From a virus, in IMG/VR virus record IMGVR_UViG_3300036402_000303, positions 1 to 64,000 of that record: DNA of 64,000 bases. One strand, written 5' to 3'. The stretch's first letter is position 1, and each line of letters begins with the position of its first letter. The notes beneath the pieces were generated by a model. It did no database searches, was not told where the DNA came from, and saw only the letters and a list, made by a program, of their open reading frames with translations. This document shows, in pieces, positions 12,137 through 50,474 of the stretch. The position numbers and the translations under genes are program-made.

Positions 12137-12880
12137 TCATGCCCGACTGGATCGTTTGTTAGTACCACCAGCTACTGCGTTTTGTTTCGGTAGTCGTGAC
12201 AAGACGCGCTTCACCTGTACTGCTTGCCACTGACCACGGCCGCGTGGCGTCTCAACGCCCTGATCGCTGAGGCGCGAGGCAATGCCGCTAAGTGACGTTA
12301 CGCCGGCAGCCTGTAGCTCTAGGATGGCAAGTGCAGCATTTGCGGCCTTGGCGTCTGCGCGCTTGGCGATGGTCTCCCTGCCCTTCGCAATCGCATCAAG
12401 AGTTAAAGTGACTGGCTTACCGTCAGCGTGTGTCCGCCGACCGCCAAGCTTCACGCCCCGGGCTTTAGCGGCCTGTAAAGCGGCCGTTGTGCGGGCAGAA
12501 GCCATGCGCCGCTCTTCTTCCGCAACCATTGCCATGATGCCGATGGTCAGCCGGTTGGCGTTGGGCATGTCGGCAGCCACGAAATCAACGCCGTCCTCTT
12601 CCAATCCGAGAAGGAAATGCGCATTGCGGGAAAGCCGGTCCAACTTTGCGATGACCAGCTTCGCACCAAACATCCGGCATGCAGCACGGGCCGCCTCGAG
12701 CTGCGGCCGGTCGGATCGTTTGCCGCTCTCGACTTCCGTGAATTCTTTGACGAGCTTCCAGTCGCCTCCATTCAAATAAGCGGCGACAGCCGCTCGTTGA
12801 GCTTCAAGACCGAGGCCACTTTTGCCCTGCTTGTCTGTCGAGACGCGATAGTACGCGACCCATTTTCCAGTTGCTTTCAT
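12137..12880 (-). CDS. Serine recombinase (resolvase/invertase family)
   Basis: The 247-residue protein begins with the catalytic domain: AYYRVSTDKQ with nucleophile Ser14, the loop GLEAQRAAV, and the arginine-containing LDRLSRNA. It then shows the E-helix (GIMAMVAEEERRMASARTTAAL) and a helix-turn-helix region ending LSDQGVETPRGRGQWQAVQVKRVL. The size is that of small resolvases/invertases rather than large serine integrases. It would cut and rejoin DNA at short dyad sites, such as the one found just upstream. In this element it may resolve dimers or invert or mobilise a segment. Confidence 0.85.
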   Translation of the reverse strand: MKATGKWVAYYRVSTDKQGKSGLGLEAQRAAVAAYLNGGDWKLVKEFTEVESGKRSDRPQLEAARAACRMFGAKLVIAKLDRLSRNAHFLLGLEEDGVDFVAADMPNANRLTIGIMAMVAEEERRMASARTTAALQAAKARGVKLGGRRTHADGKPVTLTLDAIAKGRETIAKRADAKAANAALAILELQAAGVTSLSGIASRLSDQGVETPRGRGQWQAVQVKRVLSRLPKQNAVAGGTNKRSSRA

Positions 12881-12895
12881 CTCGGTCCTTACATT

Positions 12896-12917
12896 CTAGT
12901 CAACGTTCGTTGACTAG
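12896..12917. promoter_or_regulatory. Perfect 10-bp inverted repeat upstream of the recombinase gene
   Basis: CTAGTCAACG and CGTTGACTAG form a perfect dyad separated by TT, 16 bp upstream of the recombinase ATG. The position fits an operator for autoregulation or half of a recombination (res-like) site. No second copy was noticed nearby. Confidence 0.55.
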
Positions 12918-13275
12918 TTTGTATACAGCGGGTGAGGCCTCAGCAACCGAAAACTTGCACACGATCAAAGAATCTTGCTCTCGAATCGTCAGGTCATGAC
13001 GCGGCGGCGGGCGAGGCACCTTGCTGTGTAAGGGCAGGCCCAAACATCCGCTGCATTGATCCATCCACCACGGCTTCCCAGCGCTGCACGTCGACGGCGG
13101 TGTGTCCGCGCGCCCGTGATCGATGGCCGAACTTTTCTGACGGTATGCCGCCGCATCGACCGACCGCTCAACGCAACGAATTCCTAAAAGGCCATTTACC
13201 GGCCCCCCATACGCCCCTCCAAAAGACCCACCCTATTCAGCGGGCCGCTCTAAATCGCTGCCAGAAAGAAAAAAC
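12918..13275 (+). other. Intergenic, no gene seen
   Basis: About 360 nt between the recombinase promoter dyad and the tape-measure gene. Short open frames here have no natural composition. The last ~20 nt are A-rich and could include the ribosome binding region for the gene at 13276. Confidence 0.4.
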
Positions 13276-16200
13276 ATGTCCGAAAACCTATCCGTCATGA
13301 CCAAGTTCACAGCTCATGACGAAGCTTCGCCAGTCGTCAGGAAACTGCTGTCGAACATCCAGCGGCTTGAACGCGGTGTGAAGAACTTCAACAGCGCGTT
13401 TGGTGCATCCGCTGACGCCGGAACTGCCGCGTTCGGCAATTGGTCGAAATTGACCGACCGATTGAACCAATCGTTAAAGGCTTCTGTCCGTGGCGCAAAC
13501 GATTATGGCCGGGAATGGCAGCGGAATCATGAAACCCGTCTGCGTGGCGAACAGCGCTTGCACGCCTCAATCCTTCGCTTGGATCAAATTGCCTTTAATC
13601 GCCGCATGTCGCAGCATGCCGCCATCACCAGGCAGCAATCAAGTCTTACACATCGTGAACCCGCTCCATCGCGCATGACCGGTAGTAGCCGGTACGGCAT
13701 CTCGCCAGTGAGGACCGCAATCGTCGGTGGCATCGCCTCTGCGGGCATCGCGTCGGTCTTCAAGCGCCGAATGGAAATCGACACCGCTGAAGTGAAGGCC
13801 AGAATTTTCGGAGAGCTTTCGAAAGACGATATCAAGCAGTCCCGTCGCTGGATCGATAAAGACTCGATCAAGTACGGAGTTTCGTCTGGCAAGATCGTTG
13901 ATGCCTTTACGGAATCGCTCAAGGCCGGATTCAGCCGGGATGCGGCGCAACAGATCGCGCAAGGCGCTCTGAAGGCCCAGAGCGCGGTCGAACTCGATAT
14001 CGGCCAGCTGATTAAGCTGAGCGGCAAAACGGCAACTATTTTCGGCGGCGACGTTAAAAACACGGATCCAGCCCGCGTCTTGAAATTGATGAATGCCATT
14101 GCCGTGGCGTCGGCTGAGACCGCCGCGGACCCGGATGAGGTCATTGAAGGCTTCAAGAAAGGCAACGCAGCGCTGGCGATGTCGAAAATGTCGGAAGCCG
14201 ACCTTGCGGCGATTCTGTCGGTCGGCATCTCGGGCGGCATCCAACCAAGCAAGGCGGGAAATGCCGTCTCCAATCTGGTCTCGACTATTGTCGGCGGCAA
14301 GAGCGCTCGCGGGCAGAAGGCCCAAGACTTGAACGAAGCCGCCCGCATGCTCGGTTACGGTGGCAAGAACAATCTTTCAGATCGGATGACGAACGATCCG
14401 ACCAACGTCCTGGTCGAGATGTTCCAGCGATTGAACGCCTTGTCGGAGCAGAACAAAACCAAGGTTGCTCGCAGGCTCGGTGGGTCAGAATGGGACGATG
14501 AGATTTTGATGCTGGCTAAGCCGGTCGATCAGATCGTTGCGACGCTCAGGGCCGTGAAGTCCAAAGTAGATATGATGGACAAGTCATCGGCTGAGAAGCT
14601 GAATTCGCTTCAAGGACGGTGGTCTAGCATCTCGGCTGCGTTCGGTCTCGGATTGGAGAAATTTGGAGCAGGCTTCGAAGATCCATTTATCGAGATCTCC
14701 GACTGGTTCCGATCAAAAATCGATAAGCTTGATTTCGATTCCGTCAGGAGGAAATCAAAGCAACTCGTCGACGGATTTAAGGCGGCTTTTGGTATTGCAG
14801 ATATCAAGCAGTCCCTCGACGGCATGCTGAGCAAAATTCAATCCACCAACGTCACGAAGGTTGTTGATTTTGCGGCCGGGGTCGCGTCAGGCATCAAATC
14901 GGTCGCTGACAGTTTCGCAACTGCGATCAGATCCATCGCCAGCGTCATGGGCAAGGATGGTAATGACACCGCAGTCCTCGGCAAACTCACCGGACAGATC
15001 ATCGGCTTGTCCGTAGCGTTAGGATTGCTGGCGCCTGTCCTGACCGTGCTCGCGGGCTTGATTGGCATTGTTCGTGGTGCAGCACTGTTGCTTGGAGTCG
15101 GCACTGCCGCCCGCATTGGTGCACGTACTGCACTTGGAGTGGCCGGTGGACCCGCCGCTGGGATGGCGTTGCTTGGCGACGGTAAGCCCGGCAATAGCGC
15201 ATCCGACATCACCGGGCTTCAGGACGCGATCAAAGCGGAGAGGGAGAGGAAGCGTCTGCTTAAGGAAGCTGGTAAGGGCGATGGCAGAGCCGACCCGCTC
15301 TTCCATCCGACCAGCCTCCGCAGCGACATCGGCGACAAGTTCGATAAGATGGGCGCGAAGCTTGAGCGCATCGCCTTCCAAGGCGGCGGGATGACCGACC
15401 TCAGTTCGAGAAATCGGACCGGTGGCGGCATCCAGAACGCCATAATGGGCGGCGGATCAAGCAGCGGCGGCACCGGTGGTATGACAAAATTGCTCAGCGG
15501 CGTCGGAACTCCGAGCGCTTTGTTCAATGGCGTGCCGGGTAGCGCTTTGCCAAACTTCGGCATAGGCCGCAGCGGAACCATCATCAGGCGAGGCGGAGTT
15601 GGTGGCATCGTCAACCAGGACAGTATCCCGTCGTTCACTGGCGGTGGTGGATCGGTGGCCGACAATGTCGGGGCCGGCTTGTCGGGTAACGCGTTCCTTG
15701 CAGCTCGCCGAGGAAAGTTCGCCGAGGAGATGAAGAACGATCCAAGCCTGAGGATGCATCTCGCTGCCATGCAGCAGACCGAGGGTATCAGCAAAGGCGG
15801 AACTATTGAGAGCCTGATGAACCGCGCGGACATGCAAGGGAAGTCCCTCCGGCAGATGCTTGGCTACAGTGCTGACGGACAGATCAACCCGAGGAGCTTC
15901 TACGGTCCAATCCGTCGAGGTGAACTCGGTCCGGCAATCCGCAGGCTGCAGAGCAACCCGAAGGAGTTCGCGAAGTACGACGGCTACACCCAGCGCGCTC
16001 TTGCGGGCAATCACGCCATTGGCGGTTACACTGACCAGGGCCTGCCCACTGATCCGAACGGATCGAAGAGAACCGGCGGTCGGTTCCCGTTCATGAAGAT
16101 CAGTCCGAAGGACGGTAACGAGTTCACTGATTGGGTTGGACCGGGATCGCAATGGGGTAAGGGCCGTGCCGGTGCGATGAACTATCGCAAGTTCATCGAA

Positions 16201-16446
16201 AACGGCATCGCCGGGTCCGGCCCGGTGACCAGCAACGTGCCTTCAGCTGCTGAGAACATTCAGAACGTCCCGATGCTGAAGCCGAATAACGACGCAGGTC
16301 TCGGCGGCAGGGGCGGTCGTGGCGGCTCGACGATCAATATCAACGGTGGAAGCCATGACGCGGAGTCGCTTGCAACGCTGGTCCAGCGTCGCGTCGACGA
16401 CTCGATGCAGTGGCGAACCCACGACAGCGAGTCTGAATATACATGA
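13276..16446 (+). CDS. Orphan phage tail tape-measure protein with C-terminal hydrolase-like domain
   Basis: The 1056-residue protein has the layout of a TP901-type tape-measure protein. A helical N-terminus is followed by a conserved core (KYGVSSGKIVDAFTESLKAGF, GNAVSNLVSTIVGGKSARGQ, LSEQNKTKVARRLGG), hydrophobic segments at ~575-640 (GLSVALGLLAPVLTVLAGLIG) and a glycine-rich linker. Residues ~800-980 (AARRGKFAEEMKNDPSLRMHLAAMQQTEG, ESLMNRADMQGKSLRQML) resemble a murein-hydrolase-like domain seen in alphaproteobacterial phage proteins. Such proteins set tail length and help penetrate the cell wall. No other tail genes surround it; its neighbours are replication and recombination genes. It is therefore either a leftover of a deleted prophage or part of a satellite-like element. 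Confidence 0.75.
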   Translation: MSENLSVMTKFTAHDEASPVVRKLLSNIQRLERGVKNFNSAFGASADAGTAAFGNWSKLTDRLNQSLKASVRGANDYGREWQRNHETRLRGEQRLHASILRLDQIAFNRRMSQHAAITRQQSSLTHREPAPSRMTGSSRYGISPVRTAIVGGIASAGIASVFKRRMEIDTAEVKARIFGELSKDDIKQSRRWIDKDSIKYGVSSGKIVDAFTESLKAGFSRDAAQQIAQGALKAQSAVELDIGQLIKLSGKTATIFGGDVKNTDPARVLKLMNAIAVASAETAADPDEVIEGFKKGNAALAMSKMSEADLAAILSVGISGGIQPSKAGNAVSNLVSTIVGGKSARGQKAQDLNEAARMLGYGGKNNLSDRMTNDPTNVLVEMFQRLNALSEQNKTKVARRLGGSEWDDEILMLAKPVDQIVATLRAVKSKVDMMDKSSAEKLNSLQGRWSSISAAFGLGLEKFGAGFEDPFIEISDWFRSKIDKLDFDSVRRKSKQLVDGFKAAFGIADIKQSLDGMLSKIQSTNVTKVVDFAAGVASGIKSVADSFATAIRSIASVMGKDGNDTAVLGKLTGQIIGLSVALGLLAPVLTVLAGLIGIVRGAALLLGVGTAARIGARTALGVAGGPAAGMALLGDGKPGNSASDITGLQDAIKAERERKRLLKEAGKGDGRADPLFHPTSLRSDIGDKFDKMGAKLERIAFQGGGMTDLSSRNRTGGGIQNAIMGGGSSSGGTGGMTKLLSGVGTPSALFNGVPGSALPNFGIGRSGTIIRRGGVGGIVNQDSIPSFTGGGGSVADNVGAGLSGNAFLAARRGKFAEEMKNDPSLRMHLAAMQQTEGISKGGTIESLMNRADMQGKSLRQMLGYSADGQINPRSFYGPIRRGELGPAIRRLQSNPKEFAKYDGYTQRALAGNHAIGGYTDQGLPTDPNGSKRTGGRFPFMKISPKDGNEFTDWVGPGSQWGKGRAGAMNYRKFIENGIAGSGPVTSNVPSAAENIQNVPMLKPNNDAGLGGRGGRGGSTININGGSHDAESLATLVQRRVDDSMQWRTHDSESEYT

Positions 16447-16561
16447 TCTATTCCCGGCCCTTCCACTGAGGGGCGGGCTTTGTCTGAATGCAAACGAATA
16501 CAAATCGCTATGCAAATGCGAATCAGTCTGAGTGATCTATCTCAACCAGAGATAGAGGGTC

Positions 16562-17101
16562 ATGAATATGGAAATTGAAAGCAAAGTCGAAACTCTGATC
16601 CATCAACTTTTCAAAGTTGATGGATCAGCCGTTCTCGTCAACGCAGCGCAGTCCTCTGCCTACTCCCTATTGGTATTCCTTGATTTTGTCACAGCGCAGG
16701 AGTCCTTTAACGGAATTGGGCACACCCAGCCGTTACACAACGGCTGGCCGAAACAGTCGCGCTCCGTCATCACGATCTTGAAGGCCGCGTATCCCCCTTA
16801 CCCGAGGGGTAACATGGCGCAGGAGAACAAACTGGCGGCAGCGGAATTGGAAAAACTACGAGGAACGATCGACTTTCAACATATCTTGGACGGCGCAGTG
16901 CGGTATGCAAACAGTCGGCGGGGTCAGAACTGTAGGAATAATGACAGACTTTCGGCGTTCCTTGCCGAACGGAAATGGGAAGTCCAAGATAATTCATCGG
17001 TCAAGCCGCCGGATAATGACAACGATCCAGATGACCGTCGGCGGAAGATGCGGTCGTCATTCTCATCTGCTAGCCCAAGTGAGGAGGCCGCTCGAAACTA
17101 G
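16562..17101 (+). CDS. Hypothetical protein with replication-type C-terminal domain
   Basis: The C-terminal part (SVITILKAAYPPYP, ELEKLRGTIDFQHILDGAVRYANSR, AFLAERKWEVQDN) has the same motif order as the end of the replication gene at 9100 (HYPKAV, FKDILRGASHYKK, FIKWPENFLKGRHWE). I infer a related domain without the winged-helix part. It starts at ATG 16562 behind GAGGGTC. Its role is unknown; it could be a replication accessory protein of the same element or a leftover of a second one. Confidence 0.5.
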   Translation: MNMEIESKVETLIHQLFKVDGSAVLVNAAQSSAYSLLVFLDFVTAQESFNGIGHTQPLHNGWPKQSRSVITILKAAYPPYPRGNMAQENKLAAAELEKLRGTIDFQHILDGAVRYANSRRGQNCRNNDRLSAFLAERKWEVQDNSSVKPPDNDNDPDDRRRKMRSSFSSASPSEEAARN

Positions 17102-17327
17102 AATGTTTTGCAACATGGGTCGCGGAGGAGGCAGGCCGCTCTTGGGGCTCGAGAGTCTCCTGGCGGGAGGTCGCCGGTGTAAATCAGGCAGGGTGCGAGA
17201 GGGGGTACGGCCTTCCAAAAGACTCCACCCCAATCGGGAGGTTCAGTGGCGCGCTGTGCTGCGCATGACCGGCGCGCGCTCCGCGCTGAGAGTCGACAAC
17301 GGCGCCGCCGTCGGGCAGAACAGTTCC

Positions 17328-17564
17328 ATGCGTATCCCTCTGATGTTGCTTGTCACCTTACCCCTCCTGACTGCTTGCGGCGGCGGTTACCACCCCCTCG
17401 AAGGCCCTGTCGCAGACATGCGAGGCGTCGACGCCAACAAATACAATCAGGATCTGGTCGTCTGCCAGGACCAGAAACGCCAGGCGTCGTTCGTAGGGTC
17501 CGCGCAAATGATCTCGAACTGCATGGCCGCGAAGGGTTACACGATCATCGAGCCGAAGGGCTGA
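17328..17564 (+). CDS. Small lipoprotein
   Basis: The 78-residue protein has a signal peptide (MRIPLMLLVTLPLLTAC) with a lipobox cysteine at residue 17, followed by a short Cys-containing domain with DLVVCQDQ, SNCMAAKGYTII. It should be an envelope lipoprotein with one possible disulfide. A second, disrupted copy lies 4 nt downstream. Confidence 0.65.
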   Translation: MRIPLMLLVTLPLLTACGGGYHPLEGPVADMRGVDANKYNQDLVVCQDQKRQASFVGSAQMISNCMAAKGYTIIEPKG

Positions 17565-17568
17565 CGGC

Positions 17569-17817
17569 GTGCGCATCACGCTCGTCCCGCTGACCATCCT
17601 GCCGCTCCTGGCCGCCTGCAGCACCAACAGCGCCCTGGAGACGCCCGTCGTCGACCAATGCGGCGTCCCCCATGAGGAGTTCACGGCAGACTAGGCCGAG
17701 TGCATCGATCGCGCGGCCCAAAGCGCCCCAGTGTCGTTCGGCGCGCCGATGACCGCCTGCATGCGCGAGAAGGGCTACCCGATACTGGCGGGCAGGAGCC
17801 GAGGCGATCGAGTGTAG
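17569..17817 (+). pseudogene. Tandem lipoprotein paralogue with an in-frame amber stop
   Basis: From the GTG at 17569 the frame gives RITLVPLTILPLLAACST, then VDQCGVPHEEFTAD, a TAG at 17692-17694, and continues AECIDRAAQ, FGAPMTACMREKGYPIL to a TAG at 17815. The pattern (lipobox, paired cysteines, C-M-x-x-K-G-Y) matches the preceding lipoprotein, so this is a tandem duplicate broken by one codon (probably CAG or TGG to TAG). Confidence 0.65.
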
Positions 17818-17870
17818 CGAGGGCTGCGCCCTGAGATGACAATTATGCCGGTGGCGCGTACCTTCCGGAG

Positions 17871-18335
17871 ATGGCCGTCATCAAGATACCAACGAGCGAA
17901 CAGCAGAAGGAAGCCGAGGACGGCTATGCCATCCTTGTCGGAAGGGTGAGCCTGCTGTGGGCAAAGATCCACGAAGACTTGGCTCAGATCTACATCTACA
18001 GGTTCAACTCTGCTGCAGCCAGACTGGCCGAGGCCGATTGGTATTCGCACAGGTCGGACAGCGCGCAGCGCGAGCTGCTGACGAAAACGATCGAGCGGAT
18101 GGATATCCGCGGCGCCGAAACCTTTCCAAATGCCAAAGGGGACTTGCTCTGGTCCATCGGCCGGATCAACACGCTCGCCAGGATCCGCACGGTGAGGTCG
18201 GTCGCTTCGCGCCCGTGCATGTGCGCCATGACCTGGCCCAGGTCACGCTTGTCGACCAGCGGCCCGCAGATATCGCAATTCCCGAAGTGCTCGATCTCGG
18301 GGCGGCTGGGGTTCTCGACGTCGGTGCCGGTGTAG
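17871..18335 (+). CDS. Hypothetical protein, C-terminally truncated by a deletion
   Basis: Residues 1-103 (VSLLWAKIHEDLAQIYIYRF, SAQRELLTKTIERMD) read like a natural helical protein. From about 18180 the frame enters DNA that is antisense to another gene's start, so the remaining residues are not native. The gene lost its 3' part in a fusion of two convergent genes. Function unknown. Confidence 0.45.
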   Translation: MAVIKIPTSEQQKEAEDGYAILVGRVSLLWAKIHEDLAQIYIYRFNSAAARLAEADWYSHRSDSAQRELLTKTIERMDIRGAETFPNAKGDLLWSIGRINTLARIRTVRSVASRPCMCAMTWPRSRLSTSGPQISQFPKCSISGRLGFSTSVPV

Positions 18336-18352
18336 CGCGGGATCTTCGGCAT
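18185..18352 (-). pseudogene. 5' fragment of a small zinc-finger-like gene
   Basis: On the minus strand from ATG 18352 the protein begins MPKIPRYTGTDVENPSRPEI, followed by HFGNCDICGPLVDKRDLGQVMAHMH. A C-x2-C and an H-x3/4-H pair suggest a zinc finger. The natural sequence ends at about 18185 where it meets the truncated gene from the left. It is a truncated remnant. Confidence 0.45.
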
Positions 18353-18671
18353 GGCTGATTTCTATGCTGGCCAGTCAGCCGAGCAGCCGGCTTAGCGCGA
18401 CGGCGGCGGCGGTGACCAAACGTGAGAACGCTGGCTGCGGTCGGGATAAGGAAGGCGCGGTCTATGCGGGCACTCCAGGCTCACTGTGCCGGGGCCGCGG
18501 CAGTCGCACCGGAACATGGCACCTGGTTGCCGGATTTCGGATCGATCGCTCGGCTGCAATGAGCACAGGTGGGCGGAGGCTTCGTCTGTATTGATTCGCC
18601 ATCGGCTTGTGTAGGGTAGCGAGCGCTCCGCGCATCCCCTATAAGCGAGGCGCTGCAGCCGACGAGGTCCC
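18353..18671 (+). other. Intergenic, no confident gene
   Basis: About 320 nt. A short plus-strand frame (about 18466-18567) and a minus-strand frame containing PPPTCAHCSRAIDPKSGNQ can be read, but neither has a start codon with a ribosome site. I see no RNA gene. Confidence 0.3.
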
Positions 18672-19106
18672 GTGAAAATCGAGAAGCCGAAGATCTATCA
18701 CATCGCCAAATATCCGCCGCCGGTCGGCGGTCGCGTGAAGGTCTGGTTCGACAAAGCAACGTCCCATCTTCTGGTTGAGGACGAGACCGGTCGCGTCGGC
18801 TGGGACATCTATGGCGTGCCGCTGTCCGACGTCGTGTTCGAGACCGAAACGACGCCGCGCGGCGCCGTCCGTTGCCTGGCTCGTGGCACAATCATCGCAA
18901 CCTCGAACACCAGAGCGGACCAAGAAGCGAGAGCCAACATCATCACGACTGGCCGCCCCATCGAGTTTTACTGGACCCGCGATAAGCAGTGGCCAATTGC
19001 GTCCGCCCGCGTGGCGCTCATAAGCAAGCCAGACGGCGGCTTCACCTCGTGCTACGCCGTCGATCCATCGCCGAGGGTAGCGAGCGCTCGGTCAGGCCAG
19101 CTGTGA
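18672..19106 (+). CDS. Hypothetical protein, 144 aa
   Basis: Begins at a GTG (18672) with the peptide KIEKPKIYHIAKYPPPVGGR. The sequence looks like a mixed alpha/beta soluble protein (VKVWFDKATSHLLVEDETGRVGWDIYG). No family is recognised. It sits alone between the deletion scar and the integrase, facing the integrase gene. Confidence 0.5.
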   Translation: MKIEKPKIYHIAKYPPPVGGRVKVWFDKATSHLLVEDETGRVGWDIYGVPLSDVVFETETTPRGAVRCLARGTIIATSNTRADQEARANIITTGRPIEFYWTRDKQWPIASARVALISKPDGGFTSCYAVDPSPRVASARSGQL

Positions 19107-19169
19107 AGCGTTACGGATGAGCGGGGGCCGCTAAGCAGAATAGGGAAGTGCCCGCCGCATAGCTCTCTC

Positions 19170-20852
19170 TCATTGATGGGCAGTAAAGCCGCTGAGGAGT
19201 TCCGGGTCTGACGGATTGGCGACCTTGGGTATGGCGTCGATCACGCGGGTCATAGCCATCACAGACACGTCGCCATAGTCATCGCCAGATGTTCGCGCCG
19301 CATGACCTTGGATGGCATCAACGACTCGCGGATCAAACCCAAGGTCGCGGCTGATCGTCTTGAAGCGATGCCGCCATGCATGGTTAGGCTGGACTCGTTC
19401 GTCGGTGACAACCGTCCGTACCAGAGCTACGACTTGAGTGTAGCAGCCCTCTGCAAACAGCGGCCCGTCATCTGACTCATCAACGAACTCCAATAGGCCT
19501 AATTCGATCAGGTGTTGGTGGATCGGCACGAGTCGAAATATCCCGGTTTTGATCCCGCCAGCCAGCGGGTTCAGGTCGAAAATTTGACGTCCGGACTCTT
19601 CACGGATGTCCTCCTTGCGAAGCTGCAAGGCCTCGCTGATCCGGCAGCCAGTGTAAGCGGCAATAAGAGGAGACCACCGCTTGGTTGCCGCCGTTCTGGG
19701 ATACTCTTTCGGTTTTCGCACGTAAGACAAGCACGCGCGGAAAACAGCTGCCGATTCCTGATCCGTGAACCCCTTTTTCCGGGTTACAATTTTCTTCGGC
19801 GCTTTGATTTTAACTGCATCAGCCGGATTCTTGGTTAGCTTTCGATTGTCCACGGCCCAGCCGAGCACCGACTTAATCCCCGGCAGATCGCCGTCTTTGA
19901 AGGTCTTTGCGGTCACCACCTTGAGACGGGCATCCTTGTATTCAAGCATGTTTGCCTCTGTCAGGCGGCTTGCATCATCGTGATCAAGATGTTTAACGAG
20001 CCTGTCGATGGCGCCCTTGTAAGTGTCATATGTGCTTTGGGTACGTCCGGTAGCCTTGGCTTCCTTCCACCACAGGTCAAGCAATCCCGTGATCGTCTGC
20101 TTTCGTTTCGCCGCTGCGACGGTTTCGACCAGCGGGAAGCGAATGGCCTTTGGGTCAGGGCTGTAGTCGCCCTCTGCATTGCGTTTCAGTTGCCAACCAG
20201 CATCTAACGAGGCCGTCCCGACGAGGCGAAGGAGGCGTTGCCGATCTTCCGGGACAAGGTGAATGCGATGCCGAATTAATACGTAGTCCGTCAGCAAGCC
20301 GAACCGCTCTTGGAGGACGTTGTACTGCCCGGCAGGGAAGGCGTTGATCGCCTCCGTCAGGTTTCCAGTCCCGAATAGCTCTTTCGCGAGGGCCGCCTCA
20401 TTCACCTTAAGAGTGGCGGGTGGAGTACTCGGGATGCGTCCCTCAATCGCCGCTCTATGGAACGCTTTGTGGTAAGCCCAGACATCCGGCTCTCCGGGAT
20501 CATTCCCATGAACTTCCTGATAGAGCCGGTATGCCTCGCCGCTCAGTGCCACCATATCCTTGTGCGACAAGCTGACAGGACCAGCGGCGGTCATCTCAAA
20601 TAGCCGCTGCAGGTGCTCAAGGGCGTCCACATGACGCGCCTTGGCAATGCGTTCGTCGCTTTCCCCAAGGGAGAATGCAACGTCGGTCCCGATGGTCACG
20701 ACCTTGATGTAGGCCGGTCCAAGCTGGCTCGACAGGTGCAATAGAACTTTCATGCCGCGTAGCCGGTCAACAACTTTGGCCGGGACGCGACAGCGGAATT
20801 GGGGGACGCTGGATCGGGAACGCTTATCCATCAAGTACTTTAAGGAAACCAT
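19170..20852 (-). CDS. int: Tyrosine integrase of the left element
   Basis: The C-terminal catalytic domain carries the tyrosine-recombinase residues: Arg in TGCRISEAL, the H-x-x-R box HAWRHRFKT, His in QGHAAR and Tyr in DDYGD. The N-terminal part resembles the long SAM-like arm-binding regions of rhizobial integrases (about 560 residues in total). An in-frame ATG at 20879 is also possible; I prefer 20852. The start is 73 nt from a tRNA-Thr 3' fragment, which is the expected attachment site for this enzyme. It probably integrated the element on its left side. Confidence 0.85.
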   Translation of the reverse strand: MVSLKYLMDKRSRSSVPQFRCRVPAKVVDRLRGMKVLLHLSSQLGPAYIKVVTIGTDVAFSLGESDERIAKARHVDALEHLQRLFEMTAAGPVSLSHKDMVALSGEAYRLYQEVHGNDPGEPDVWAYHKAFHRAAIEGRIPSTPPATLKVNEAALAKELFGTGNLTEAINAFPAGQYNVLQERFGLLTDYVLIRHRIHLVPEDRQRLLRLVGTASLDAGWQLKRNAEGDYSPDPKAIRFPLVETVAAAKRKQTITGLLDLWWKEAKATGRTQSTYDTYKGAIDRLVKHLDHDDASRLTEANMLEYKDARLKVVTAKTFKDGDLPGIKSVLGWAVDNRKLTKNPADAVKIKAPKKIVTRKKGFTDQESAAVFRACLSYVRKPKEYPRTAATKRWSPLIAAYTGCRISEALQLRKEDIREESGRQIFDLNPLAGGIKTGIFRLVPIHQHLIELGLLEFVDESDDGPLFAEGCYTQVVALVRTVVTDERVQPNHAWRHRFKTISRDLGFDPRVVDAIQGHAARTSGDDYGDVSVMAMTRVIDAIPKVANPSDPELLSGFTAHQ

Positions 20853-20924
20853 GGTCTGTGTGGCACCATTGTGTGGCACTCAGGACCGAATTTCCAATAA
20901 AATCAACATCTCCAATGGGATGAG

Positions 20925-20977
20925 TGGTGCTGCCAGACAGGATTGAACTGTCGACCTCTCCATTACCAATGGAGTGG
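20925..20977 (-). other. tRNA-Thr(GGT) 3' fragment, attachment site
   Basis: On the minus strand this reads as the anticodon arm (CTCCA-TTGGTAA-TGGAG, anticodon GGT), variable loop, T-arm (GACAG-TTCAATC-CTGTC) and acceptor end (TGGCAGC-ACCA). The D-arm and 5' acceptor strand are absent: the match ends at 20977. This is the classic footprint of integration at a tRNA 3' end. Two integrase genes lie on either side within 75 nt, so it is the junction of two tandem elements. The intact tRNA should lie to the right, beyond the right-hand element. Confidence 0.8.
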
Positions 20978-20993
20978 GCGATTTGACATAAAC

Positions 20994-22325
20994 TCATGCG
21001 GGACGGGCCTTTCTTGGCTTTGCTACACCGTCGCGTGTCAGGTTCGTGCCCATATCATCCAGCTCATTCACCAGCTGGCGCCGGTATTCCGGGGCGTCGT
21101 GCGAATAGCCCATGACCGACCGGATATCGAGCCAGCCGCCTTGCTCCATTGCCGCGCGGGGGTCTCGCCGCAGCATCTTCTGAGCCAGCATGTGCCTGAA
21201 CCAGTGCTGCGTCACCTTGCCGATCAGGGCGGCGTCGGCGCCGGCCTGGTCCCGCGCTTCGGCAGCGGCCTTACGCTGGCCCGCCTTCATCAGCCGCGTA
21301 TAGGTGGCCTCGCCAGCGTCGATAATGGCCGCAGCGGCCCGGCGCTTTGCTGCATTGAAGCCGGTCTTGTTCTGGCCACCGCCTGCCTTGCCATTGTCGG
21401 CGTAGGGCTGGCGGCGGTAAGTCAAGAATAGCGGTGCCTCCCGGTCATGCAGCTTGCCACGCCATTTCAGATAATCCTTCAGCACCGCCACCGCGGTCGG
21501 ATCCAGCGCCGCGGAAACGTCCTCGCCGTTCTTCGTGGCGGGGAATGTGATCTGCTCCCGGCCCTTGGCAAGGATCAGGTCGCATACTCTTGCGGCATAG
21601 ATGATCGAAGACACCCTGGCACCGGTGGCCCGCTCCACAGCGAGCTGCGCCCTGATGCTGATGTGGCAGGCATCAAACAGCGCCCTCACCAAGTCCGGCC
21701 GCAGATCCGTCACCCGCCGGCGGACCCGCCGGTTCGGATTGCGGGCAGCCTGATCGCGTTCGAACTTCGGCACCTCAGCAAGGCCGTGGTTTCGCTGAGA
21801 ATAGTGCAGAAAGGACAGTAAGCCGCCCAGGAAGCGTTCGCGGGCCGACGCTGTGTTGCCCGTCATCCGGCCTGGGAACGCGCTGCCGTCAGGCTTTGCG
21901 CCGCCGTCGATCCATTGCTTCCACTCGTCGGGCCGCAGCTCGTTGAACCGTCGAGCGCCGAACTTCTTGACCGTCTCCTTGACGATATTGACCGAGGTAG
22001 CGCCAAGCGGCCGGCGCCTGGGCATTGCCAGGTAGGCCGCGGCGGCTATCGCAACTGGATCACCTCGCCCAGCTTTGCCGGTGACCTTCGCTTTGACGTC
22101 CTCGATGTAGGAATCGAGCGCTGTTTCTGCTTCGGTCTGGCTGGTGGCCGCAACGGCCAGGCCAAGACTTTGTCGGACGCGGACTGAACGGCCTGCGACC
22201 CGTAGGGTACCGACTGCGTGCCAGTTACCGTCTCGCTCTTTGAGCGCGATCCCGCGAGCACGCCGCCCGGGGCGCTTTCCCTTTCGATCGCCGCCTCGAG
22301 ATTTTGGAACGCAGTCGCCGACCAT
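20994..22325 (-). CDS. int: Tyrosine integrase of the prophage
   Basis: The catalytic residues are visible: Arg in ATGARVSSI, HWFRHMLAQ, and the final GYSHDAPEYRR. The N-terminus (ALKERDGNWHAVGTLRVAGRSVRVRQSLGL) fits an AP2-like arm-binding domain. The frame is open to 22403, but I place the start at about 22325 because upstream residues overlap the excisionase-like gene in another frame and look unnatural. The stop is 17 nt from the tRNA-Thr fragment. It is the last gene of a minus-strand early operon running from 26490. Confidence 0.8.
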   Translation of the reverse strand: MVGDCVPKSRGGDRKGKRPGRRARGIALKERDGNWHAVGTLRVAGRSVRVRQSLGLAVAATSQTEAETALDSYIEDVKAKVTGKAGRGDPVAIAAAAYLAMPRRRPLGATSVNIVKETVKKFGARRFNELRPDEWKQWIDGGAKPDGSAFPGRMTGNTASARERFLGGLLSFLHYSQRNHGLAEVPKFERDQAARNPNRRVRRRVTDLRPDLVRALFDACHISIRAQLAVERATGARVSSIIYAARVCDLILAKGREQITFPATKNGEDVSAALDPTAVAVLKDYLKWRGKLHDREAPLFLTYRRQPYADNGKAGGGQNKTGFNAAKRRAAAAIIDAGEATYTRLMKAGQRKAAAEARDQAGADAALIGKVTQHWFRHMLAQKMLRRDPRAAMEQGGWLDIRSVMGYSHDAPEYRRQLVNELDDMGTNLTRDGVAKPRKARPA

Positions 22326-22474
22326 ATCCGTTTCCGTCCGCGCATCGTGTGAAACTGAAACCGCCGATCGTCGATGGCGCGCAGCAAGTCTGCCGCCAGC
22401 CATCCGTCAAGGGTGCGCTTGCCGATTCTAAGATCGGCCGCGACCTCGTCCATTGTGCGGTCGCCTGCAGCCAT
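22046..22474 (-). CDS. Excisionase-like helix-turn-helix protein
   Basis: The first ~70 residues (TMDEVAADLRIGKRTLDGWLAADLL, then RRFQFHTMRGRKRIWSATAFQNLEAAI) form a winged-helix MerR/Xis-like DNA-binding domain with a terminal contact strand, as in phage excisionases. The remaining residues overlap the integrase gene in another frame and may be only partly meaningful. Its ATG shares one base with the stop of the 29-codon gene upstream (TGATG), and it lies just before int, as is typical for xis. Confidence 0.6.
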   Translation of the reverse strand: MAAGDRTMDEVAADLRIGKRTLDGWLAADLLRAIDDRRFQFHTMRGRKRIWSATAFQNLEAAIERESAPGGVLAGSRSKSETVTGTQSVPYGSQAVQSASDKVLAWPLRPPARPKQKQRSIPTSRTSKRRSPAKLGEVIQLR

Positions 22475-26641: not shown

Positions 26642-26908
26642 ATGAGTAAGGCCGCTGCCACCACCGGAGCCAAGGTCGTCACCTATTACGTCGTGCAGCC
26701 GTTTGAGCTGAGCCCTAAGGGGCGCTACAAGGTGGGTGCGCCGCTGCAGGCACAGAGCCGTGACCAGGCCGTGCGGCGCGCTGAGCGGCTCGCAAAAGAG
26801 CAGGGCGGGGCCATTGCCTTCAGCAGGACCGGTGACCCCGAGTTCGGGGATTTCGAGGACGCGGTGCTACTCGGCAAGTTCGGCGACGTGCCGGACGAAT
26901 TTCAATAA
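26642..26908 (+). CDS. Hypothetical protein, 88 aa
   Basis: MSKAAATTGAKVVTYYVVQP, then LSPKGRYKVGAPLQAQSRDQ, ending FGDVPDEFQ. It resembles small rhizobial prophage proteins with an alternating strand-helix pattern. It starts divergently from the early operon, about 75 nt from the operator pair, and may be repressor-controlled. Function unknown. Confidence 0.6.
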   Translation: MSKAAATTGAKVVTYYVVQPFELSPKGRYKVGAPLQAQSRDQAVRRAERLAKEQGGAIAFSRTGDPEFGDFEDAVLLGKFGDVPDEFQ

Positions 26909-26997: not shown

Positions 26998-28092
26998 ATG
27001 GCCACGGCCGAAGAGGTTGCCAGTTTTTTGGCATATGAATTTTTACGAAATGGTAATTACAGTGCGGCATCGGGGCCAGTGGAGGTTCCGAAGTTGGCTC
27101 AGATGGGAGCGGCCGCCGCAGATCTGGCCTTTGACGATGATCGGGAGGCCGCCGACGTCTTTGCAAACCTAGCGGTGCAATCGGTTGGACATGAGGAAGG
27201 CGTGCCTGATCCAAAGGTCCACATCTACCTGACTAGGGGATCGTCGAAACTGATCAAAGCGTTACCTACAGAACTCGATGGTGTCCCTGTTAGGGCGCAT
27301 AAAATGGGAGCGATAACTGTGCGGCCGGAAAGCGCAGCCGCCTCGACAAATCGAGGGCATTTGTTCGAAAGAAACAGCCGGGTATGCTGTGGCAGTTCTT
27401 GTGCGCCGACATCAGAGAATATTTCTGGAACGTTCGGCGCAATCGTTACGAAAGCTGGCGGTCCAGACCTTTTCTTATTGTCCAATAACCATGTTTTTGC
27501 CGGCTGCAATCACGTCCCGAGGCAGCAGCCTATACTTTCGCCAAGCAATATGGATAGCAGCCCGAATGTTCGCGCTCCTACCGAAATCGGTCGCCACCAT
27601 GAAATCCACGAATTGCGTAGCGGGGATCCCAACCTAGTGAATCCGTGCGACGCGGATCTCGCCATTGCGGTTGCAACTAATCCTGGCTCGATATGTTCTT
27701 GGCAGGGTGATGACACTTCAGGTTACGACACGCCGCAACATGCGATTGTGGCTCGATCGAATATGAAGGTTAAAAAGTTCGGACGAACTACGGCACTGAC
27801 GTTCGGGCAATTGGAAGCAAAAATTGGCACACCACAGGCGATTGCGTATAAGGCAAATCATTTTAAGGGAAAGGTTTGGTTTAAGGACGTTTGGTCGATC
27901 CGAGCACCCGCAGGTGAGGTGTTTGCCTTGTCCGGTGATTCCGGAAGTTTGGTTGTGACCGAGGATGGTCAACATGCTGTTGGTCTCGTTTTCGCAGCTA
28001 ATCCTGCGGGGGATTATGCGCTCATGATCCCGATGGCCTGCGTCAGCGCCTCGTTTGGCGGCCTTCAACTTGTTGGCGGACATGGAGTTTAG
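26998..28092 (+). CDS. Trypsin-like serine protease (lysogenic conversion gene)
   Basis: The chymotrypsin-fold triad is visible: His165 in LLSNNHVFAG, Asp220 in CDADLAIAV and Ser315 in LSGDSGSLVV. Before it, residues ~65-110 form a small domain (PDPKVHIYLTRG, ALPTELDGVPVRAHKMGAI) often found in bacterial trypsin-like proteins and also forming the whole of the next gene. There is no signal peptide, so the protease should act in the cytoplasm. GC content and codon use are lower than the surrounding phage genes, a sign of separate acquisition. Its position beside the CI gene in opposite orientation is typical of genes expressed in the lysogen. A role in abortive infection or exclusion is inferred. 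Confidence 0.75.
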   Translation: MATAEEVASFLAYEFLRNGNYSAASGPVEVPKLAQMGAAAADLAFDDDREAADVFANLAVQSVGHEEGVPDPKVHIYLTRGSSKLIKALPTELDGVPVRAHKMGAITVRPESAAASTNRGHLFERNSRVCCGSSCAPTSENISGTFGAIVTKAGGPDLFLLSNNHVFAGCNHVPRQQPILSPSNMDSSPNVRAPTEIGRHHEIHELRSGDPNLVNPCDADLAIAVATNPGSICSWQGDDTSGYDTPQHAIVARSNMKVKKFGRTTALTFGQLEAKIGTPQAIAYKANHFKGKVWFKDVWSIRAPAGEVFALSGDSGSLVVTEDGQHAVGLVFAANPAGDYALMIPMACVSASFGGLQLVGGHGV

Positions 28093-28093
28093 G

Positions 28094-28333
28094 ATGGTGA
28101 CCTCCGAATTAGCGGCGAAGGAACTCGATGCACGGCTGCGGGAGAACGCTTGGTATCTCTCAACGGGGGTTGGCGAAACGCGTGACGGGAAACCCGCTCT
28201 GTATGTTTATGTTAAAACCGCACGGCACCGAGAACTGACGCAACTTAGGTGTTGGATGGGATTTCCGGTCATGATTAGAGCGATCGGTTCGATCAAACCT
28301 TTAACAGCACTATCCAATAGGATCTCCGCTTAG
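28094..28333 (+). CDS. Small partner of the trypsin-like protease
   Basis: The ATG at 28094 follows the protease stop by one base. The 79-residue product reads WYLSTGVGETRDGKPALYVY, then ELTQLRCWMGFPVMIRAIGSI. The pattern (glycine turn, D-G-x-P, strand, G-x-P-V, I-G-x-I) is the same as residues ~65-110 of the protease. It is probably the same domain as a stand-alone protein, possibly an inhibitor, sensor or substrate of the protease. It shares the protease gene's lower GC content. Confidence 0.55.
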   Translation: MVTSELAAKELDARLRENAWYLSTGVGETRDGKPALYVYVKTARHRELTQLRCWMGFPVMIRAIGSIKPLTALSNRISA

Positions 28334-29005
28334 TCACCGCCTGTTGTACTTTCCGACCACCCGGTGACAGATCGGCCAATCGACGCGATCGACACTGAAT
28401 TTCCGCTCCGGATTGAACTGTTCCAACCGCCATTTGTCGGCGGTGTAGGACAACAGGTTCTTGATCATGGATTCGCCCTCGCCCGTCTTGGGGTCGTGGT
28501 CGTAGAAAACGTGAACTTCGTCATTCAACGGCTGCAGGCCGGGGTGTATCAGCGCCATGTCGCCGTGGCGGTAGGCGGGGGCCATCGAATTGCCGGTGAT
28601 GAGGATGCCGTAAGCGCCGGTGACGCCTTCAAGGTTTGCCGGGCGCCGGACGCGCTCGATGACGTCGGTGGTGACGATCATGTGGCCGTCGCCGCCGGCG
28701 GTCGCGGCGTAGATCGGAAAGTCGCGGTCGCCGACGAGCTCGGCGCCGGGGATGATCTGCGGGGTGAAGGTGTCCGGTTCCTGTGCCCGCGCCTTTGGCG
28801 GGTCCCCGACGCCTTCCATCAGCCACGGTAGACTGACCTTCAGAACGACCGCCAGCGCTGGCAGCTTGTCGGGATCCGGCCGGGTCTTACCGGCCTCCCA
28901 TTGCGTCACGGACACGCGGGCCACGTCGAAATGCTTTGCCAGCTCGTGCTGCTTGAGGCCGGCGGCGCGGCGGGCTAGGCGGATACGGTCACCGAGATCT
29001 GTCAT
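28334..29005 (-). CDS. CI-like repressor (HTH plus S24/LexA-type peptidase)
   Basis: Residues ~5-60 are an HTH_XRE domain (LKQHELAKHFDVARVSVTQWEAGK). The C-terminal half is an S24 peptidase fold with Ser140 in GNSMAPAYRHGDM and Lys182 in SMIKNLL. An Ala-Gly pair (YAATAGG, ~103-104) lies 36 residues before the serine, the spacing found in LexA and lambda CI. RecA-stimulated self-cleavage and SOS induction are therefore likely. I start at ATG 29005 (GTG 29011 is also in frame). The gene diverges from the Cro-like gene, with operators between them. Confidence 0.85.
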   Translation of the reverse strand: MTDLGDRIRLARRAAGLKQHELAKHFDVARVSVTQWEAGKTRPDPDKLPALAVVLKVSLPWLMEGVGDPPKARAQEPDTFTPQIIPGAELVGDRDFPIYAATAGGDGHMIVTTDVIERVRRPANLEGVTGAYGILITGNSMAPAYRHGDMALIHPGLQPLNDEVHVFYDHDPKTGEGESMIKNLLSYTADKWRLEQFNPERKFSVDRVDWPICHRVVGKYNRR

Positions 29006-29014
29006 TTCCACAAT

Positions 29015-46540: not shown

Positions 46541-46875
46541 CCGAGGCCCTCGTCTGGCACCTCAAGTGGGGCGACAAGATCGCCTGGCTTGAGGATCTGG
46601 CCGAGGAGGAGGGCCGCGAACTGAAGGCGCTGGCCGACCGACCTGAGGTCGACGAACACCTGGAATGGGTCTGGCAAGCGTTCTGGGATCTTTGCAGCGA
46701 TCGGCATGTCGGCTTCGGCGAAGGCCCGATCCAGTGGACTTCAATCGACGCCTACGCCCGCAGGCACCGCCTGCGTGATGACCGGTTCGATCGCCTGCTG
46801 TTCCTTTTGAGACAGATGGACCGAGCGTATCTCGGCGCGCGGGCTACACCCACCAAAGAGAAGCAAACGCGATAA
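46127..46875 (+). CDS. Tail assembly chaperone GT-like -1 frameshift fusion
   Basis: A -1 shift on A-AAA-AAC (46531-46537) lets ribosomes bypass the TGA and continue in a frame that has no start codon near its beginning: LTEALVWHLKWGDKIAWLED, then ELKALADRPEVDEHLEWVWQ, ending TPTKEKQTR at TAA 46873. The fusion is about 249 residues. The downstream frame is fully open for 112 codons with natural composition, and its TAA overlaps the tape-measure ATG, as in lambda G/GT and most siphophages. Confidence 0.85.
46531..46537 (+). promoter_or_regulatory. Programmed -1 frameshift site (slippery heptamer)
   Basis: A AAA AAC is in the correct phase (GCA AAA AAC TGA). It is the X-XXY-YYZ form for simultaneous tandem slippage and is followed at once by the zero-frame stop. 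Confidence 0.85.
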
Positions 46876-49800
46876 TGGCGACATCCCTGCAAACCATCCG
46901 ACGGATGACCATCGAAAGCCGCGCTGTCGGCGTCGATGAGACGTCGCAGAAGCTTGCCCGGTTGGGGCAGGCGCAGGACGCCGTTGCGGAATCGTCGGAG
47001 AAGGCCACCGCGCAAACCTCGGCCTATGAGCGCGCGCTGGACAGTCAGCGTCGCGCGCTAGACATGACCACTAGGCTAAGTGCTGAACTGGCGCGCGACC
47101 GTATGGCGATGAGCGCGCAGCTGCAGCAGCAGAACGCTATGCTTGTCGCAGCCAACGACAACAGCGCAAAAAGTTTCACTGTCATGGGCTTGGAGGCCGC
47201 GGAAGCCGCCAACCATCTGCGCGTCGCCGGCGAGGCCGCCTACTTGTTTTCTCCAGCCTTCCGGGAAGTCGTGAACGGCATGGCCGCGCCGGCCCTGCGA
47301 GGGGCGTCCGTGGCGCTGGTCGCCGTCGCCGGTGGCATCGTCACGGCCACCAACCTTGCCGGAACAGGCCTTGTCAAGCTGGGCACGTCGGCCGCGCTGG
47401 CCAGTACCGGCCTTACGCCGGTCGCCGCCAGCATCACTTCCGCCGGCCTCGCCATGCAGGCATTCAATCCCTCTGTCGCTGGAGTTGCCGCCACGATTCT
47501 AGGCAGATTGCTGCCCGCACTGCGCCTGCTCGGAACCGTCGGTCTCGTCGTCAACGCCGCGATGATGGTGGCGGACGCGTGGGAGCTCGGCGGCAAAAAG
47601 CTGGAAGAATACCGCAAGATCGCCGAGAAGGCCGCAGCGACGGACCTGTCGACCGCCTTCTTCCAGCGCATCACCAAGGCGGCTACCGACGCCAAGTTGC
47701 CGGTCGACGACCTGACGGCTTCTATGAGGAAGTTGTCCGAGGTCAGCGCCGAAAAGCTTGGCGGCAGCGATCTGCAGAACCGTCTCGACCAGTTGACCAA
47801 GGCCGGCAACTTCAAGGGCAATACCGGCGTCGGCCAGCTGGCCGCCGCCAACACCACCGAGGAAAAGTTCCGAGCAATCGTCTCCCTGGTCGACCAAGCC
47901 ATGCTGAAAGGCGAGCGTCTCGCCGCTCTGGACCTGACGTCGAAATTCCTCTCCCCGGCGACGCAAGAGGCACTGACCAAGGATAGCGAATACCTCGGCA
48001 AGATGCTGGCCTCGGCGGACAAGATCAGCGCCACCAAGCTGGTGTCGGATGAGGATATCGGCGCGGCGCTGGAGCTGCAAAACCGCTACGACGCCGCTGT
48101 CAAGATCCTGGAGACGCGCTGGCATCCGATACAGGACCTGCTCACGGCCGCCGGCGTTAAGATGCAGACAGCGTGGGTTGGCATCGTTGAGGCGGTTGCC
48201 ACCGCCGTCGACTGGATCACCCGACTGGTGATGAAGATCGGCGAAATTCCGCAGACTTTCTGGGATTATATAAAGAAAGGTGCCGCAGCATCGGTCAGTT
48301 TGGCAGTCGGAGCCGTGCCGGTGGTCGGGCCCGCCCTCAGCCTGGGCGCCCGCATTGCCACCAGCGGTGGCGAGGGCGACGTCGCTGCCGTCGACGAGAA
48401 GACCAAAGCTTACGGCCGGCTGGCGGCGGGGTTGCGCAATGTCAACGCCGTGCAGCAGAAGACAGCTGAAATCAACGCCATCCAATCTGCCGTCTGGAAG
48501 GATGCATCGAAGCCGATCGAGACCGCCACAAAAGCGGCCCTGGAGCACAAGGATGCGCTGATCCGCGCTATGGATGCCGTTGAAAAGTACATTCTCACGA
48601 CCGAGGCAGCCGCCAAGTCCGTGGGTGCCGGCGTGTTCGAACAGGAGAAGGCAAAGGTTGTCGCTCAATTAACCGCGGCTGCGCAGCGGGATGGCAAGAC
48701 CAACCTTGCACAATACGCGGCAGCCTGGGACGAGCTGGGCAACCGCGCCGGCGCAGCGGCGCAAAAGCTGGCGCTGGCCAACGCGCAGTCGCAGGCTGAT
48801 TTCGCCGGAAAAACCATGTTCATGTCGCCATCGGATCTGGCGGCTGCGAACGTGATGAAGAACATCTATGGCGACGCGTGGCAGTCGCACATGGACGACG
48901 CGCTTGCCAAACAAATCAAGATGAACAGCCTGTTGGGCGACGTAAAGAACACCGCCCAGCAGTTCGCGCAAACCTTCGTCCAGGGTCTTATGCAGGGCAA
49001 AAGCGGGATGGATGCGCTGGTCGCCGCTGCCGACCAGCTTGCCGGCAAACTCGCGAATGACGGCATCGCGAACCTGATGAGCCTCAATCCTGAACAAATG
49101 GGTGTGGGCGCGCTGCAGCTCGGCGCCTCGGCGCTGATCAGCATGTTCACCGGCGATCAAAAAGCCAAGAAGCAGCTCGAAGAGGCGAAGAAACAATGGG
49201 AGGGGATGACGAGTCAGGTCAACGCCTTCAACGCAGCAGCGGCCGGCGTCGATCTGGGACCTCTAACCAACGAACTGAACTCGCTGTTCTCCAGCTTTAG
49301 AACGTTGGCACATGCTGCCGCGGAAGCCCACGACGAGGCAGGCCGAACGAGGGTCGGCAATACGCTTTATAAGGGCGCGATGCGCGTTATCTCAGAATTT
49401 GAACGCGGCACCGATACGCTGAATCCGCTGCAGCAGTCGATCAAGGCTGTCAATGATGAGGCTGCCGGCCTGAAAGACACCCTTGCAGAGATTTCTGCGG
49501 CCAATCACTGGAGTTTTGACACGTCCGGGATCGACGCCGCGGTCAAGGTGAAGATTCAAAACCTCATCAAGAATGCAATGGATACGTTTACCGACAGCCT
49601 GACCTCGCGGCTCAACGCGGCCAACGGGCAGGGCTATCTCAATGACGCCACGGCGCTGGCCAAGCGGCGCCAGCAGGACCTGTCGGACGCGGCGATCCTC
49701 GGCAACGATCCGGCGCTGCTGGCGCAGATCTCCGCCGTTTTCCACGCTGAGGCGCAGAAGATCGTAAATGACGCCGGCCTGGTCGGCGCTGAGTTCGCCG

Positions 49801-50474
49801 ACTTCACCGCGCTGTTTCCGGATTTTGCCGGCGTGGTCACCGAATCCGCCGATGCGCTGGCCGCGGCCAACGACCGCTTCAAGGCGATGACGGAGACCAT
49901 CAACGACTATCTCGACAGCCTGCAGCTCGGCGACAAGTCGATCCTGAACCCGCAGGAACAGCTGAAGGCCGCGCAATCCCAGTTCAACGCCCAGCTGGCG
50001 CTGGCGCAATCCGGCAACGCCGATGCGATGGGGACCATCACGCAATATGCCTCGGCACTGCTGGATCAGGCCAAGGGTTTCTATGCATCGTCGGCGGGTT
50101 ACGGCGATGTCTACAGCGCGGTGACGGAAGCGCTTCGCGGCCTCACCGGTGGGCAGGGTGTGATTGCGGGCACCGGCGCAGCGATGCTGCAGCAGACCAG
50201 CCTGGCGGGTCCGCAGCTGCAGTCCAATGCCGCGCTCGCGGTCACGCAGCCACTTGCATCGCGGATCACCGCAAGCAACGACAACGGCCAGTATTTCGTC
50301 AATCTCGGCCAGCAGCTGGTGCAGGCCATGGCCGGTTGCTCGATGGGGGAAATCAGCGCGATGCGCGAGGAGAATGAAAAACTGCGCGCCGAGGTGCGGA
50401 ACCTGATCACGGCGGTGGAGGGCAACAGGCCGAGGGCGCCGCGGCCCTCGGCACGCACGGGGACGAACGGATGA
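46875..50474 (+). CDS. Tail tape-measure protein of the prophage
   Basis: A 1199-residue helical protein: N-terminal coiled-coil region (ETSQKLARLGQAQDAVAESS), hydrophobic stretches at ~130-220 (SVALVAVAGGIVTATNLAG, LLGTVGLVVNAAMMVADAW), a second hydrophobic region near 470-500 and a long Ala/Gln-rich helical tail (SILNPQEQLKAAQSQFNAQLALAQ). Its length would set the tail length. It is unrelated in sequence to the orphan tape measure at 13276. Confidence 0.85.
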   Translation: MATSLQTIRRMTIESRAVGVDETSQKLARLGQAQDAVAESSEKATAQTSAYERALDSQRRALDMTTRLSAELARDRMAMSAQLQQQNAMLVAANDNSAKSFTVMGLEAAEAANHLRVAGEAAYLFSPAFREVVNGMAAPALRGASVALVAVAGGIVTATNLAGTGLVKLGTSAALASTGLTPVAASITSAGLAMQAFNPSVAGVAATILGRLLPALRLLGTVGLVVNAAMMVADAWELGGKKLEEYRKIAEKAAATDLSTAFFQRITKAATDAKLPVDDLTASMRKLSEVSAEKLGGSDLQNRLDQLTKAGNFKGNTGVGQLAAANTTEEKFRAIVSLVDQAMLKGERLAALDLTSKFLSPATQEALTKDSEYLGKMLASADKISATKLVSDEDIGAALELQNRYDAAVKILETRWHPIQDLLTAAGVKMQTAWVGIVEAVATAVDWITRLVMKIGEIPQTFWDYIKKGAAASVSLAVGAVPVVGPALSLGARIATSGGEGDVAAVDEKTKAYGRLAAGLRNVNAVQQKTAEINAIQSAVWKDASKPIETATKAALEHKDALIRAMDAVEKYILTTEAAAKSVGAGVFEQEKAKVVAQLTAAAQRDGKTNLAQYAAAWDELGNRAGAAAQKLALANAQSQADFAGKTMFMSPSDLAAANVMKNIYGDAWQSHMDDALAKQIKMNSLLGDVKNTAQQFAQTFVQGLMQGKSGMDALVAAADQLAGKLANDGIANLMSLNPEQMGVGALQLGASALISMFTGDQKAKKQLEEAKKQWEGMTSQVNAFNAAAAGVDLGPLTNELNSLFSSFRTLAHAAAEAHDEAGRTRVGNTLYKGAMRVISEFERGTDTLNPLQQSIKAVNDEAAGLKDTLAEISAANHWSFDTSGIDAAVKVKIQNLIKNAMDTFTDSLTSRLNAANGQGYLNDATALAKRRQQDLSDAAILGNDPALLAQISAVFHAEAQKIVNDAGLVGAEFADFTALFPDFAGVVTESADALAAANDRFKAMTETINDYLDSLQLGDKSILNPQEQLKAAQSQFNAQLALAQSGNADAMGTITQYASALLDQAKGFYASSAGYGDVYSAVTEALRGLTGGQGVIAGTGAAMLQQTSLAGPQLQSNAALAVTQPLASRITASNDNGQYFVNLGQQLVQAMAGCSMGEISAMREENEKLRAEVRNLITAVEGNRPRAPRPSARTGTNG

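Follow-up and report, generated by a model that had tools for sequence, protein, structure and literature searches.

A temperate phage carries two adjacent genes that encode an intact serine protease resembling NARROW LEAF 1 (NAL1) and, directly behind it, a free-standing relative of the N-terminal domain of that same protease. The two genes probably constitute a protease–regulator module with the small protein as a dedicated control partner, since the same pair occurs in unrelated bacteria, plasmids and phages. Our preferred reading, to which we assign a probability of roughly 0.5, is that the free domain would act in trans on the protease as a pro-domain-like inhibitor or folding partner, by analogy with known pro-domains.

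The pair lies in a stretch of 64,000 nucleotides (the window) inside an IMG/VR virus record of 76,726 bases. Matches to terminase, primase and integrase families, together with a CI-type repressor, identify a temperate phage in the window. The locus comprises the following features.

26642..26908, + strand: upstream open reading frame (ORF) of 88 aa, uncertain as a member of the unit (GC 0.64, unlike the pair)
26998..28092, + strand: NAL1-like serine protease, 364 aa (PF25819 Nal1_C; AlphaFold model)
27175..27324, + strand: N-terminal domain of the protease, residues 60–109, NAL1_N-like, alpha-beta-beta-alpha-beta (leave-one-locus-out HMM; model)
27376..28080, + strand: chymotrypsin-fold catalytic domain, residues 127–361 (fold match; invariant triad)
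27490-27492, 27655-27657 and 27940-27942, + strand: assigned catalytic triad H165, D220 and S315, respectively (invariance in alignments)
28084..28087, + strand: GGAG, likely ribosome-binding site of the partner, inside the 3′ end of the protease gene (sequence)
28094..28333, + strand: partner protein, free-standing domain copy, 79 aa (AlphaFold model; relatives adjoining proteases)
28334..29011, − strand: CI-type repressor, context outside the pair (Pfam HTH_3, Peptidase_S24, Phage_CI_repr)

The protease and partner ORFs are separated by 1 nt, with the GGAG 6 nt ahead of the second ATG. A family-model search with the 88-aa upstream ORF gave no convincing match, and a promoter scan at the locus detected no site on the + strand. 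Further from the pair, the window encodes a 961-aa SMC/RecN-like ATPase (2673-5558, − strand) whose best PADLOC match is LmuB of Lamassu (E 5.5e-32); it is a possible defence gene, located to the left of the phage genes. Positions 12137-22403 hold a serine recombinase, a tail tape-measure/baseplate-hub-like ORF (13276-16446) and two tyrosine integrases (19170-20879 and 20994-22403). This region is separate from the main structural block, which has a large tape-measure-sized ORF of its own at 46875-50474, and the two are perhaps two elements, or remnants of them, lying side by side.

The 364-aa protein is an intact NAL1-like His-Asp-Ser serine protease with a predicted chymotrypsin fold. It matches PF25819 (Nal1_C) with 28.0 bits against a curated cut-off of 26.1, and 12 of the 13 members of its alignment match this family at E up to 0.1. 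The AlphaFold model (pLDDT 85.7) aligns with rice NAL1 over the full length (VIA Z-score of 24.8 and rmsd of 3.8 over 296 residues), and the catalytic domain alone superposes on alpha-lytic protease and the streptogrisins with Z-scores of about 21–22 and an rmsd of about 2. H165, D220 and S315 are invariant in close and distant relatives (alignments A5 and A8). A hydrophobic signal segment was sought in the protease and none was seen, in agreement with the cytoplasmic location given in the original prediction. The window protease itself does not match PF25608 (NAL1_N), which is matched by 4 of the 13 alignment members, all distant relatives. A profile of the N-domains, that of the window protease included, finds the NAL1 N-terminus in a search of the whole PDB at E 1e-7, with all other entries above 0.06, and the N-domain of the window protease is recovered with its own locus left out (HMM E 9.6e-10, residues 60–109). 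The first ~30 residues (26998-27087) are strongly conserved among the close-clade proteases (AYEFLR-G-Y-A--GPVEV); despite this conservation, confidence in the model is very low just past the first helix.

On profile comparisons and predicted structures, the 79-aa protein is a free relative of this NAL1_N-like domain. It had been proposed to share a short motif order with protease residues ~65–110, and the common segment was indeed located at residues 61–107. A direct BLASTP comparison of one protein with the other tells little (E 0.18). Comparison of small alignments with hhalign gives P-values of 6.3e-6 (protease residues 61–107) and 2.8e-7 for the shared segment, and profile–profile comparison of larger alignments (A9 versus A10) gives 4.8e-11. 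A profile built from free copies only, searched against six-frame genome translations, retrieves the Stella protease by its N-domain (E 1.4e-5). The AlphaFold model of the 79-aa protein (pLDDT 83.2) contains H4-15, E21-28, E34-40, H46-49 and E57-63; the N-domain in the protease model contains H48-55, E59-65, E74-80, H83-88 and E96-102. The models, compared by the order of their elements, thus have the same succession of helix, strand, strand, short helix and strand, so that both structure predictions contain the common fold whose absence would have spoken against a shared domain. A fold search with the small protein lists the NAL1 N-domain (8pn1_A, residues 94–173) with a Z-score of 5.0, a value that is unspecific, and an rmsd of 3.2 over 63 residues. 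The free-domain profile finds nothing below E 0.43 among PDB sequences, and the free-domain proteins compared one by one with PF25608 do not reach its cut-off. The small partner genes have no family model among Pfam, NCBIfam, PHROGs and PADLOC, and the pair is therefore invisible to present annotation.

The pairing recurs well beyond the window. In a leave-one-locus-out analysis of 48 loci, 47 of them with a protease ORF above 200 aa, the free domain was detected at E < 1e-4 at 30 of these 47, every time within 230 bp of the protease; the 79-aa ORF of the window was recovered at E 2e-16. Of the remaining real ORFs the best had E 0.045, and none of the about 10,000 shuffled or reversed ORFs did better than 0.29. 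The training free domains had been chosen in a previous round from these very loci, a few of which are interrelated, and the procedure guards against self-training, not against kinship of loci. A profile of protease N-domains only, never shown the free copies, also ranks the adjoining small ORFs first, and in its final version no reversed ORF falls below E 0.6. In every close-clade relative (L007, which is a second phage; another viral contig; Stella; Mesorhizobium; and one bin each of Rhodospirillales and Planctomyces) the partner directly follows the protease; among the distant relatives, found on plasmids and in Alphaproteobacteria and Planctomycetota, its position may be downstream, upstream or divergent. 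Among 240 alphaproteobacterial genomes, six contain the free domain, and in all six a protease is next door. Searches with tblastn gave no match in phage records and only distant proteases in plasmids. An alignment of all distant proteases, intended for pattern scans, was dropped as too diverse.

The two proteins also diverge together: protease and partner distances correlate over 27 loci with r = 0.60 (0.52 without the close clade), a value reached in 0 of 5000 permutations. In two secreted planctomycete NAL1-like proteases that have neither an N-domain nor a free partner, the domain is fused C-terminally (L050, residues 355–412, E 1.5e-6; L062, residues 313–367, E 7e-5), and the order of the fusion, catalytic domain and then domain, is that of the gene pair. 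In another locus (L045:193-759, − strand), a partner encoded divergently from a large protease has a lipobox-like signal segment (AAAAGCGERAG) and, judging from this segment, may be exported to the same compartment as the protease. Two Rhizobium plasmids carry radical SAM and HEXXH peptide-modification genes ahead of the protease, with a divergent free domain (L002:1235-3570 and L003:1258-3560), and on a Rhizobium plasmid represented by L006 (L006:3614-6212) the protease, the partner and a phospholipase-D-family gene with DrmC-like PADLOC matches stand in a row.

Pairing is not absolute, as partner-less viral loci and orphan or tandem copies indicate. Eight virus-encoded NAL1-like protease loci were searched for a free copy and have none. 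Four Planctomycetota loci (L078, L084, L090 and L093; L071 and L087, near contig ends, are left out of this list) encode the free domain with no protease within about 1–1.5 kb on each side, and a 515-aa frame (G506, L086:1153-2700) contains four tandem copies with no protease detected in its flanks. In a domain tree that is rough and built on few columns, partners mostly group with partners and not with the N-domain of their own protease, which points to an old duplication that has been kept; L040 and L057 have upstream copies that branch among the N-domains, which suggests that this old duplication occurred, or was exchanged, more than once. The notion that the partner replaces a lost N-domain was rejected because most partner-carrying proteases keep a detectable one.

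For a free homologue of the front domain that is kept adjacent to a protease and diverges with it, the simplest role is action on this protease. In the mechanism that we favour, an intracellular chymotrypsin-fold protease would carry a small alpha/beta domain ahead of its catalytic domain, and the second gene would supply the same type of domain in free form. The free domain would bind the protease and either restrain it or aid its folding, like a pro-domain in trans; were it lost, diluted or displaced, protease activity would change. Physical binding, inhibition over activation, and the trigger are all three what we infer. Domain homology, recurrent adjacency, co-divergence, the C-terminal fusions and the fold matches were counted for this reading, which is preferred because the front domain is positioned like a pro-domain, the catalytic domain is of the alpha-lytic/streptogrisin type, and Foldseek matches the small protein to pro-regions. 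These matches, to the alpha-lytic protease pro region at ranks 1, 4, 5 and 6, are weak (E 0.02–0.06, probability up to 0.99), and the corresponding VIA superposition (Z-score of 5.0, rmsd of 2.2 over 57 residues) is tied with those on unrelated ribosomal and other alpha/beta domains; the fold link, made on a predicted model, is suggestive only. The Pro_Al_protease family (PF02983) gave no match at E up to 1 with 24 free-domain members, and its profile found nothing in 58 + 299 genomes; it was likewise absent from the control genomes, which left no comparison set for a sequence link to the alpha-lytic pro-domain. The alpha-lytic pro region is required for folding of its protease and inhibits the mature enzyme (PMC2605481, PMC2829044). 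Given such a likeness, binding of the free domain to the catalytic domain is no less likely than the competition or sensing put forward in the original prediction. Against the pro-domain-like reading, a domain of this type is already present in cis, so that a second could do another job, and the partner-less viral loci, the orphan domains and the four-copy tandem protein have to be accommodated.

Next in probability, and possible, is that the free domain serves as a subunit for activation or oligomer building, which would pair with the cis N-domain in a mixed oligomer or deliver substrates and without which the protease would be inactive. Adjacency, co-divergence and fusion fit this arrangement equally, most partner-carrying proteases do retain a cis N-domain with which to pair, and PDB entries of NAL1 contain as many as six chains of identical sequence and, by their titles, include 'open' and 'close' forms. 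The existence of partner-less relatives with an intact triad argues the other way, as activity in general seems not to need the partner. It is unlikely that the free and cis domains instead vie for a ligand or phage protein, with release of the protease on infection as the outcome, as in abortive infection or exclusion. The low GC and the cargo position beside a repressor in two phages would suit such a role, trypsin-like peptidases are components of bacterial conflict systems (PMC7159879, PMC13236601), and the DrmC-type matches of the gene that follows the pair on the L006 plasmid offer a hint; PADLOC defence models, however, are unmatched by the pair (at E up to 10, by the protease, the partner and the 88-aa upstream ORF alike), and some relatives, such as that of Stella, stand among housekeeping genes. 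Least probable of all is a small protein without any regulatory part, serving chiefly as a substrate or surviving as a decaying duplicate of the N-domain. It is a duplicate by origin and orphan copies are known, but the intact ORF is conserved across phyla and, within the limits of the rough, few-column tree, the mostly clustered partners indicate a duplication that was retained.

The phage context supports the view that the pair is prophage cargo, with the lowest GC of the phage and a place beside CI in two phages. Both genes are on the + strand, between a leftward gene block and the repressor gene, which is convergent with the pair and directly abuts the partner gene; the original prediction had placed the pair beside the CI gene. 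The lower GC noted there also holds: 0.528 for the pair against a mean of 0.614 for the phage part, and the only intervals of lower GC overlap the pair. In the second phage, L007, the pair follows immediately on a repressor-like ORF of the same orientation, and on a third viral contig an endolysin-like ORF precedes it (both from translations read by eye). Deviant GC and placement beside the repressor fit cargo that is expressed in the lysogen, and the pair is probably made there. Of the original prediction, the common domain, the recurrent adjacency and the cargo-like placement in two phages are supported, whereas a part in lysogenic conversion, superinfection exclusion or abortive infection would be conjecture. 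Nor is the pair confined to phages, being found also on plasmids and in bacterial chromosomes, in Stella for instance between housekeeping genes (neighbours read by eye).

The protease family is already known (NAL1; Pfam Nal1_C and NAL1_N), and NAL1 is a major yield gene of plants. What would be new is a protease with a putative propeptide-like partner supplied in trans; a literature search for such a protease with a free-domain partner found no description in the papers searched. A 2026 paper terms NAL1 a plant-specific protease (PMC12915138), whereas phages and bacteria prove to have this architecture as well. Should the protease be under the control of the free NAL1_N-type protein, the NAL1_N domain would acquire a testable function and the repertoire of prophage cargo a protease–regulator pair. 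More speculatively, the two genes may be a previously undescribed, widespread system, with a free homologue of the N-domain acting as the switch of an intracellular NAL1-type protease; beside a prophage repressor, this system would serve as a lysogen-expressed immunity or cell-fate switch, fired when infection removes or captures the free domain; we consider this extended version doubtful. Were the two-gene switch real, it would provide a simple bacterial model for the regulation of plant NAL1.

Of the known systems, rice NAL1 (PF25608 NAL1_N, PF25819 Nal1_C) is close in architecture, with an N-domain followed by the catalytic domain, a full-length fold match (Z-score of 24.8) and the N-domain profile match at E 1e-7. 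It differs in that identity is 17% over the structural alignment, the genes of the pair are bacterial or phage genes, and the pair has a free second domain in a separate gene; a plant-type substrate is not expected. The trypsin-co-occurring domains Trypco1 and Trypco2 of bacterial conflict systems (PMC7159879) are likewise found in small proteins encoded beside a trypsin-like peptidase, whereas the phage small protein has a homologous domain within the protease itself. Identity with them was rejected, as PF19493 and PF19631 were matched neither by the 24 free-domain members nor in the six genomes or records searched. Alpha-lytic protease (S1 family) shares the catalytic fold (Z-score of about 21 and rmsd of about 2.2), and its pro region is among the best Foldseek matches of the small protein. 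That enzyme is secreted, with a pro region made in cis and then cleaved off, whereas the phage protease is intracellular, with an extra domain in trans that is unmatched by the PF02983 sequence family. Propeptide-like protease inhibitors, such as those of the subtilisin I9 type, are free relatives of a protease pro-domain. Although they belong to other fold families and act in other protease clans, they offer the analogy that the phage small protein would follow, that of a free copy of the protease's own front domain.
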